A DNA stretch of 64,000 bases. Origin: Mycobacterium sp. NBC_00419. Its GTDB lineage: Bacteria; Actinomycetota; Actinomycetes; Mycobacteriales; Mycobacteriaceae. A model generated the notes under the pieces. The model was not told the origin of the DNA and did no database searches. It saw only the letters and a list, made by a program, of their open reading frames with translations. The stretch covers positions 2,542,001 through 2,606,000 of the forward strand of contig NZ_CP107931.1 of the NCBI RefSeq assembly GCF_036023875.1, written 5' to 3'. A program made the position numbers and the translations under genes. Below, piece by piece: positions 29,469-61,593 of this stretch (position 1 is its first letter; each line of letters begins with the position of its first letter).

Positions 29469-30383
29469 GTGCCTAACCGTCGTCGACGCAAGCTCTCGAC
29501 AGCCATGAGCGCAGTCGCCGCCTTGGCCGTCGCAAGTCCGTTTGCAGCCGTTGGTGTCATCGAACTGACGTCCAACACCGCGGCACCAGAGCACCATGAT
29601 TTCGTCCAGGCCGCTGTCGTCACCGACCTGCCTAACGAATTGCTGTCCGCACTCCAGCAGGGTCTGTCGCAGTTCGGGATCAACATCCCTCCGCTGCCGA
29701 CAGGCTTGAGCCCGGCAGGCGCGCAGCCCGTTCAGGCCGGGCCGGCACTGACCACGCCGGGGCTCACCGCCCCCGGTCTGACCACCCCGAGCCTGACCAC
29801 CCCTGGTCTGACCACCCCGAGCCTGACCACGCCCGGTCTGACCACTCCTGGCCTGACCACGCCGGGGCTGACCACGCCCAGCCTGACCACGCCGGGGCTG
29901 ACCACGCCCAGCCTGACCACGCCCAGTCTGACCACGCCGGGTCTGACCACACCCGGTCTGACCACACCTGGTCTGACGACGCCGAGTGCGACGCTTCCGG
30001 GCGGCGCGGCGGCCACGACGCCGTCGCTCACCGATCCGGGCCTGACCACGCCGGGTCTGACGACACCCCAGCTGGGGACCCCGTCACTCACCAGCCCGTC
30101 GGCCACCGGTATCGGACTGCCCAACGAGCAGCCGATCAGCGCGCCCCTGGGCCCGGTCGCCGGGACCTACCCGATCCTCGGTGATCCCTCGCTGGGGGTG
30201 CCGACCGCGCCGACCAGCTCGGGCGGGATCATCAGCGATCTGAGCAGCGCAGCCAACCAGCTTGGTGTTGGGCAGGCCGTTGACCTGCTCAAAGGTGTCC
30301 TGATGCCGTCGATCACGCAGGCGATTCAAGGCGCCTCGTCGGCGGCCGCGGCGGCACCTGCAGCAGCGGCTCCGGCCGGATAA
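29469..30383 (+). CDS. pirG: Exported repetitive protein Erp (PirG)
   Basis: 304-residue surface-exposed virulence-related protein. GTG start at 29469 with 'GAGGAG' ribosome site. The signal region is 'RRRRKLSTAMSAVAALAVASPFA', followed by a conserved N-terminal domain ('HHDFVQAAVVTDLPNELLSALQQG'). The central repeat block (residues about 93-200) consists of five-residue units of the form P-G/S-L-T-T/A, then a conserved domain and an Ala-rich hydrophobic C-terminus. Erp homologues differ mainly in repeat number between species; here the block is regular early and degenerates after about residue 172. Divergent from the glf operon, as in other mycobacteria. Confidence 0.92.
   Translation: MPNRRRRKLSTAMSAVAALAVASPFAAVGVIELTSNTAAPEHHDFVQAAVVTDLPNELLSALQQGLSQFGINIPPLPTGLSPAGAQPVQAGPALTTPGLTAPGLTTPSLTTPGLTTPSLTTPGLTTPGLTTPGLTTPSLTTPGLTTPSLTTPSLTTPGLTTPGLTTPGLTTPSATLPGGAAATTPSLTDPGLTTPGLTTPQLGTPSLTSPSATGIGLPNEQPISAPLGPVAGTYPILGDPSLGVPTAPTSSGGIISDLSSAANQLGVGQAVDLLKGVLMPSITQAIQGASSAAAAAPAAAAPAG
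29748..30073 (+). repeat. Erp central repeat block (PGLTT/PSLTT units)
   Basis: Tandem degenerate 15-bp units coding P-G/S-L-T-T, about sixteen in the regular part, then an interruption around 29995-30035 ('SATLPGGAAATTPSLTD') and a few more copies. Codon identity between units varies (ggt, ggc, ggg; acc, acg), so the array is protein-level, not a recent DNA-level expansion. Confidence 0.9.
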
Positions 30384-60644: not shown

Positions 60645-61067
60645 ATGGCAGAAGCTCAGGACCAGCCCGAACAGGGTGGTGCCACGCCGCCGGAGCCGCA
60701 ACAGCCCGAGGAGGCCGTCGCGAAGAAGGCTCCGGCCAAGAAGGCACCGGCCAAGAAGGCGGTGAAGAAGGCGCCCGCCAAGAAGGCGCCCGCGAAGAAG
60801 GCACCGGCGAAGAAGGTTGCCCCGCCGGCGCTCGAGGCACCGGCCACCCACGCGGCACTGGCCGCCGGCAACGGATCCCCGCCGGTCGCCGAGGCGGCCC
60901 GGGAAGCAGCCGCCAACGCGAAGTCGACGGTGGAGCAGGCCGCCAGCCCGCTGTCGACGCCGTCGGTACCGGCCGTCCCGGAGCCGGGCCGGTCCCCGCT
61001 GCCGTTCGCGGTGGCATTCGCCGTCACCGTCCTGCTCGCGTTGCTCATCCGGCGGCTGCGTCGGTGA
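60645..61067 (+). CDS. hns: H-NS-like membrane-anchored nucleoid protein (Rv3852 type)
   Basis: 140-residue DNA-binding protein. An acidic N-terminus is followed by KAPAKKA-type basic repeats (about residues 27-57), as in H1-like tails, a Pro/Ala linker and a C-terminal helix '[22 protein letters not shown]' which would anchor DNA to the membrane. 'AAGGAG' site at 60634. The 3' end is involved in a 47-bp tandem duplication (see repeat entry), so the last 14 codons recur downstream. Confidence 0.88.
60720..60816 (+). repeat. Lys/Ala/Pro codon repeats in hns
   Basis: About seven units coding 'APAKKA' or shortened forms ('[19 protein letters not shown]' and further). The codons vary moderately (gcc/gcg/gca), so it is not a simple DNA slippage array. 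It supplies the basic DNA-binding segment. Confidence 0.8.
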
Positions 61068-61114
61068 CCGTCACCGTCCTGCTCGCGTTGCTCATCCGGC
61101 GGCTGCGTCGGTGA
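61021..61114 (+). repeat. Perfect 47-bp tandem duplication at the hns-rraA junction
   Basis: Copy 1 at 61021-61067 and copy 2 at 61068-61114 are identical; the next five bases (ccgtc) begin a third partial copy. Each copy spans the last 15 codons of hns, its TGA and the first bases of the next start. Because 47 is not divisible by 3, the two copies read in different frames. Flanking bases differ, so the duplication is bounded exactly. Confidence 0.97.
61064..61114 (+). CDS. 16-codon mini-ORF created by the duplication
   Basis: GTG at 61064 overlaps the hns stop (GTGA) and reads 16 codons, [16 protein letters not shown], ending in the TGA at 61112-61114 which overlaps the rraA GTG at 61111. 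The peptide is the hns membrane tail again. Before the duplication hns and rraA were presumably coupled by a single GTGA; now both junctions are. Whether it is translated is unknown. Confidence 0.35.
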
Positions 61115-61593
61115 CCGTCGCCTTCCGCCCGACCGCCGACCTCGTCGACGACATCGGACCCGAGGTCCGCAGCTGCGATGTCCAGTTCCGCCAGTTCGGC
61201 GGTCGCCAGGAGTTCGCCGGGCCGATCAGCACGGTGCGCTGCTTTGAAGACAACGCCTTGCTCAAGTCGGTACTGTCCGAGTCCGGCGACGGCCGCGTTC
61301 TGGTCATCGACGGTGCGGCATCCGTGCACGCCGCCCTGGTCGGCGATGTCATCGCCGAGTTGGGGCGCTCCAATGGCTGGGCCGGCGTGATCGTGCACGG
61401 CGCGGTACGCGACGCCTCGACGCTGCGCACCCTCGACATCGGCATCAAGGCGCTGGGCACCAATCCGCGCAAGAGCACAAAGACCGGTGCCGGCGAGCGC
61501 GATGTGCCCGTGAGTTTCGGGGGCGTCACCTTCACCCCGGGTGAGCTTGCCTACAGCGACGACGACGGTATCGTCGTCACCCCGGCTGGCTAA
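61111..61593 (+). CDS. rraA: RraA-family protein (MenG homologue, Rv3853 type)
   Basis: 160-residue protein of the RraA family, regulators of RNase E in E. coli, earlier misnamed MenG. Motifs: '[27 protein letters not shown]', '[20 protein letters not shown]', '[23 protein letters not shown]' (the R-G-type pocket) and '[10 protein letters not shown]'. Trimeric in known structures. Start GTG 61111, coupled to the mini-ORF. Confidence 0.93.

Follow-up and report, generated by a model that had tools for sequence, protein, structure and literature searches.

Between the hns and rraA genes of Mycobacterium sp. NBC_00419, two short identical copies of sequence lie directly side by side and create a 16-codon reading frame that overlaps both genes. 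This locus raises two questions, namely, how the extra copy arose and what it does to ribosomes that pass from hns to rraA. The stretch analyzed here (hereafter the window) comprises 64,000 nucleotides of contig NZ_CP107931.1, positions 2,542,001 to 2,606,000. We suggest that the duplicated segment is probably a locally born, MIRU-like coupling cassette that relays ribosomes from hns to rraA.

The duplicated hns-rraA junction

The features of the junction, in window coordinates, are as follows.

60645..61067, + strand: hns, an Rv3852-family protein of 140 aa, lysine-rich and with a hydrophobic C-terminal tail (NCBIfam NF050153)
61021..61067, + strand: copy 1 of the 47-bp unit, the end of hns including its TGA (sequence and TRF)
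61064..61067, + strand: GTGA, overlap of the hns stop and the mini-ORF start (sequence)
61064..61114, + strand: mini-ORF of 16 codons with a GTG start, overlapping at both ends (sequence and strict chain check)
61068..61114, + strand: copy 2 of the 47-bp unit, matching copy 1 at every base (sequence and TRF)
61111..61114, + strand: GTGA, overlap of the mini-ORF stop and the rraA start (sequence)
61111..61593, + strand: rraA, RraA family, 160 aa, GTG start (NCBIfam PRK09372.1 and PDB 1nxj_A)
61115..61119, + strand: CCGTC, repeating the first five bases of the unit, a possible slippage pairing site (sequence)

An earlier sequence-only reading had claimed two identical, abutting 47-bp copies, and comparison of the window sequence confirmed them at 61021-61067 and 61068-61114. 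TRF reported the array at 61021-61126 with a score of 198. The exact period-47 match extends beyond copy 2 to 61119 because the opening CCGTC of the unit recurs directly after copy 2; since this motif both opens the unit and adjoins copy 2, there is microhomology at the duplication joint. The coordinates also agree with the claim of a GTG-started, 16-codon ORF that overlaps the hns stop and the rraA start with GTGA at either end. This mini-ORF, checked singly, passed the strict test for an unbroken chain, and the 4-nt stop/start overlap of NTGA-coupled gene pairs is present in the array. Furthermore, the rraA GTG in copy 2 has 43 upstream nucleotides identical to those of the mini-ORF GTG in copy 1. 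At the level of sequence, the duplication did turn a two-gene coupling into a three-step chain of overlaps, as had been proposed.

Both neighboring proteins are intact despite the duplication. The hns product matches NCBIfam NF050153 (Rv3852_fam) over residues 1-140 with 104.4 bits (cut-off 100), and rraA scores 228.9 bits against PRK09372.1 (cut-off 136) and 210 bits against TIGR01935 (cut-off 123.8), with a match of its product to PDB 1nxj_A at an E value of 2.1e-81. The gene name hns is a legacy one, and Rv3852 is described as unlike H-NS (PMC8233713). Since both proteins are intact, the duplication was likely tolerated and may be near neutral, and any effect on RraA is likely modest at most. 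The predicted Shine-Dalgarno match of the rraA GTG (-4.3 kcal/mol) lies within the range of NTGA starts in 13 sister rows (-1.1 to -5.0 kcal/mol). In six sister rows, a second start two codons downstream has -6.9 kcal/mol, and the spaced rraA starts of two other loci reach -11.7 (L090) and -10.3 kcal/mol (L101). This comparison is neutral, speaking neither for nor against a relay, and does not set the rraA start of this genome apart from sister NTGA starts.

A perfect tandem copy of 47 bp cannot be put down to chance. A scan of 2.0 Mb of the genome, in five 400-kb blocks, yielded 11 perfect tandem arrays with a unit length of 15-300 bp (eight in the first 1.6 Mb and three in the further 400 kb). 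The unit length is a multiple of 3 in nine of these 11, the exceptions being the 47-bp array at hns-rraA and a 35-bp array at pbpA-pknA. Among TRF arrays whose unit is 10 bp or longer and not divisible by 3, these two also have the highest scores in the first 1.6 Mb (198 and 162, respectively; all others at most 80). The three perfect arrays of the further 400 kb all have multiple-of-3 units, so that this block contains no new perfect array of the other kind and adds no case bearing on the frame rule discussed below. Imperfect arrays with units that are not multiples of 3 reach TRF scores of 93 (25 bp) and 372 there; the latter is a diverged 128-bp tandem pair at L420:12010-12259 (genome 752010-752259), with an 85% match and a unit of 2 mod 3. 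In the window itself, about eight diverged copies of a 30-bp unit are found at 29748-29983 (TRF score 283). Given the duplication, the chance of an unbroken mini-ORF chain is about 0.31 when length and order are randomized.

The copy could also be an artifact, with one true copy doubled in the consensus by assembly or sequencing. We consider this very improbable. The genome is a single contig of 5,615,436 bp, in which the hns-rraA junction occurs once, and the assembly has a completeness of 100 and a contamination of 0.04. In addition, the comparable array at pbpA-pknA has counterparts with one, two, and more copies in other assemblies. The 94 bp of the two copies are shorter than ordinary sequencing reads, which likewise speaks against such an error.

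The sequence-only reading took the identity of the copies as a sign of recency. The identity holds, but its value for dating is weak because zero differences over 47 bp bound the divergence only to below about 6% (95% bound) and because an array can stay uniform through slippage or conversion.

The junction in related genomes

We found an rraA match in 286 of 297 genomes of the genus, and in 78 of 80 and 18 of 19 genomes in two further sets. After a distant paralog (L340) was dropped and identical junctions were merged, 250 matched loci gave 191 distinct rraA junctions, in which the upstream neighbor is not hns in every case. Only two of these contain a perfect array whose unit is 10 bp or longer, namely, the junction studied here and L093; the other 48 array rows among the matches listed have units of 7 or 9 bp. 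A search with the 26-bp joint of the two copies, allowing up to three mismatches, matched four of 396 genus genomes including this one. The remaining three matches have three mismatches each and lie far from rraA, such that the joint occurs at the hns-rraA locus in this genome alone. This agrees with the expectation, raised earlier, that a single copy elsewhere would mark the duplication as lineage-specific, within these 396 genomes and with other species as the comparison.

The closest relative by PknA (G241, 97%), which by RraA also ranks among the nearest (92%), lacks both the duplication and the overlap at this junction. Its hns tail is longer, and 10 nt separate the hns stop from the ATG of rraA. 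When one unit is removed from our junction, the alignment with G241 still shows 26 bases fewer around the hns stop; the two lineages therefore differ by an indel in addition to the duplication.

Direct overlap is common close to this species: among the 25 junctions nearest in rraA sequence, 18 have an NTGA overlap, five are spaced, and two are the arrays. It is rarer over the full set of 111 distinct junctions, where a test of the upstream ORF found an NTGA overlap in 28 and no upstream ORF in five; a looser test found no NTGA link in 123 of the 191 junctions. Judging from these sequences, coupling of hns and rraA is not maintained across the genus. Short NTGA-to-NTGA frames at the 191 junctions numbered seven in one listing and three under a stricter rule for the upstream gene. 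Those other than L093 were set aside as possibly due to chance. The array of this genome is absent from both listings because the frame of its mini-ORF is open far upstream.

L093 (genome G136) belongs to another species and carries 2.9 copies of a 20-bp unit at its hns-rraA junction (L093:1444-1501). This array gives two chained 7-codon frames, MSTRNAE, each joined by ATGA, ahead of rraA. Both in sequence and in length the unit is unlike that of our array, and the two are therefore taken as independent. Yet, 20 is 2 mod 3, like 47; the chance that both arrays at this junction have this residue is 1 in 9.

A copy-variable cassette at pbpA-pknA

The layout recurs in the same genome at the array below and, for this second junction, in relatives.

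Genome 2817523-2818761, - strand: pknA-named ORF (Ser/Thr kinase models, below curated cut-offs)
Genome 2818750-2818830 (L205:18750-18830), - strand: 35-bp tandem array at the pbpA-pknA overlap (perfect-array scan and TRF)
Genome 2818828-2820450, - strand: pbpA-named ORF (penicillin-binding protein models, below curated cut-offs)

The family scan of the pbpA-named ORF covered its 390 C-terminal residues. The two gene names lean on these matches below cut-off and on a gene order that we presume from other mycobacteria. The array has two copies and two chained 12-codon frames, with the joints GTGA, ATGA, and ATGA, and 35 is again 2 mod 3. No match to the unit with up to three mismatches was found elsewhere in the genome, where the two tandem copies stand alone.

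We compared this junction in our genome and 30 relatives, chosen mostly by rraA similarity. There is no insert in nine of these 31 genomes and an insert of one, two, or more copies or variants in 22. The number of copies per junction ranges from zero to at least three, and the unit is common to several species. An unbroken NTGA chain leads from pbpA to pknA in all 22 inserts, and the nine junctions without an insert all have a direct NTGA overlap. In G241 there are two copies that differ from each other, whereas the two of our genome are identical over the array; this contrast could reflect either homogenization or separate duplications.

A wider search with a cassette-end pattern matched 52 of 396 genomes, with one to six matches each; the pattern ended in ATGA and so favored intact right ends, a bias of which the set of 31 genomes is free. 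The pknA start was found in 29 of the 30 loci kept from this search, and in 60 of 61 overall when all 31 chosen genomes are included. A small number, such as those in G361, G289, G293, and G354, are located away from pknA. One locus (L378, genome G267) has six matches to the 35-bp type of cassette before pknA, arranged as two blocks of three that are separated by an 8-bp step with an N in it.

Merging of identical or short-flanked rows left 46 pbpA-pknA junctions, nine of them without an insert. With the pattern-found loci added, the chain is unbroken in 37 of 37 inserts, compared with about 10.8 expected if the frame were left to chance, although these rows are related by descent and 21 of the 37 share a 34-nt spacing. 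Stop-to-start lengths are 34, 49, 58, 64, 69, 70, 105, 136, and 217. In a copy with one extra base, the two frames are joined into one without breaking the chain, with steps of 71 bp. A greedy test that always took the nearest start reported four of the 46 junctions as broken because the chains there run through longer, fused frames; all four are intact once any in-frame NTG is allowed. A looser version of the test ended several chains at any long open frame, whereas the strict versions require pbpA's own stop. Because any simple chain step is necessarily 2 mod 3, the information lies in the unbroken chains rather than in the residue of the step. They may point to purifying selection for chain integrity.

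These cassettes bear on two other readings of the mini-ORF. It might act as a brake, in line with the lower RraA synthesis that the sequence-only reading had suggested, each additional round of termination and reinitiation losing ribosomes and thereby lowering RraA relative to hns. Coupling efficiency is described as varying strongly with context (PMC12548453), so an extra step could have a cost, with loss at every step being an assumption of this reading. However, up to six cassette matches stand in series before pknA (G267; L378, the locus holding an N), and chains are therefore tolerated at pbpA-pknA. We regard the brake as unlikely.

The other reading is that of a functional small membrane peptide, which the sequence-only reading had considered. 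The 16-residue product has a 10-residue hydrophobic core followed by RRLRR, copied from an Rv3852-type tail, and the C-terminal hydrophobic stretch of Rv3852 is described as a tether to the membrane (PMC8233713). However, only nine of the 17 hydrophobic residues in the hns tail are shared by the peptide, its length is about half of a membrane span, and the joint is found at this locus in one of 396 genomes. The peptides from the parallel cassettes (MSTRNAE and MSPRSRAKRGKP) are hydrophilic and unrelated; it is therefore the layout that recurs and not the peptide, and we rejected a peptide function common to the cassettes. A membrane function of the product appears very improbable.

Proposed ribosome relay and frame rule, and known systems

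In the relay that we consider probable, a local tandem duplication copied the final 47 bases of hns along with its GTGA joint, probably through replication slippage in which the CCGTC at the head of the unit paired with the one immediately after the hns stop. As 47 is 2 mod 3, the first GTG opens the hns tail of copy 2 in hns's own frame, which ends at the second TGA; this stop again overlaps the rraA GTG. A ribosome that finishes hns may restart at the GTG at 61064, make 16 residues, terminate, and restart at rraA. Reports from other systems are compatible with these steps. Termination-reinitiation at the AUGA overlap of uPPE2-PPE2 is described as reporter-tested in M. smegmatis (PMC11260477), RTGA-coupled small ORFs are given as over-represented in mycobacteria (PMC4633059), and the E. 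coli studies covered by one review place the most efficient coupling at spacings of -4 to +3 (PMC12548453).

The same reasoning can be put in a general form. A tandem copy across an NTGA overlap leaves both genes readable and changes only the destination of a ribosome restarting at the first NTG. If the unit is 0 mod 3, such a ribosome would run into the second gene and add an N-terminal extension; if it is 1 mod 3, the ribosome would enter a third frame; if it is 2 mod 3, the ribosome would translate the copied tail as far as the second stop and then reach the true start. Only the last of these would preserve the relay to the native start. Whenever a copy finishes at the NTGA overlap and its length is 2 mod 3, a start-to-stop cassette is re-created mechanically. 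We tentatively propose as a frame rule that only units of 2 mod 3 across stop/start overlaps keep the relay and so persist as self-propagating coupling cassettes; on present data, we lean slightly against its holding generally.

The hns-rraA array illustrates how a coupled small ORF can be born in a single step, by one duplication of the right length and with its neighbors intact. If the frame rule is true, NTGA overlaps would, through slippage, continually supply mycobacteria with new small ORFs and might be where MIRU-like elements originate, with hns-rraA as a young case and pbpA-pknA as an older, copy-variable one. Reinitiation dependence is otherwise tested pair by pair with reporters; under the rule, natural tandem copies at overlaps would provide a genome-wide readout of gene pairs that depend on it.

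Our literature search covered Rv3852/Rv3853, mycobacterial coupling, MIRU and senX3-regX3, short ORFs, and pbpA and pknA repeats, a scope outside which most subscription papers fell. At the level of titles and abstract openings, it returned no description of tandem copies across stop/start overlaps and, in the pbpA/pknA repeat literature, none of the 35-bp cassette.

The nearest known kind is the MIRU (mycobacterial interspersed repetitive unit), whose layout the array has: a short unit lies where two genes meet and contains an ORF described as coupled to the downstream gene at a spacing of -4 (PMC12548453). The mini-ORF likewise has a 4-nt overlap with its downstream gene (GTGA at 61111-61114). 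The MIRU of senX3-regX3 is reported to have 77-bp repeats, two BCG strains carrying two and three of them (PMC9392950); by arithmetic, 77 is 2 mod 3, as is 47. A dispersed element of this type inserted at the overlap would account for the internal ORF with its -4 spacing (PMC12548453). However, MIRUs are described as mobile repeats dispersed over several loci, whereas the unit here is hns's own end and both the junction and the 26-bp joint occur once in the genome. On this single-locus occurrence we rejected MIRU membership, and insertion of such an element is the least probable of the alternatives weighed here. The pbpA-pknA cassette of the same genome resembles the hns-rraA array in its NTGA-to-NTGA layout, its 2 mod 3 unit, and its two copies, but differs in sequence, in being copy-variable (up to six matches), and in being common to several species.

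Two other systems are similar in part. In the RTGA-coupled small ORFs (Shell et al., 2015; PMC4633059), the TGA of the small ORF is described as overlapping the RTG of the next gene. Those small ORFs are described as preceding an annotated gene, whereas the hns-rraA mini-ORF overlaps genes on both sides and its tandem origin is visible. In uPPE2-PPE2 of M. tuberculosis (PMC11260477), a short ORF is described as handing ribosomes on at an NUGA overlap, as we propose for hns-rraA; uPPE2 is the ORF of a riboswitch leader, whereas the mini-ORF is a duplicate of the tail of its upstream gene.
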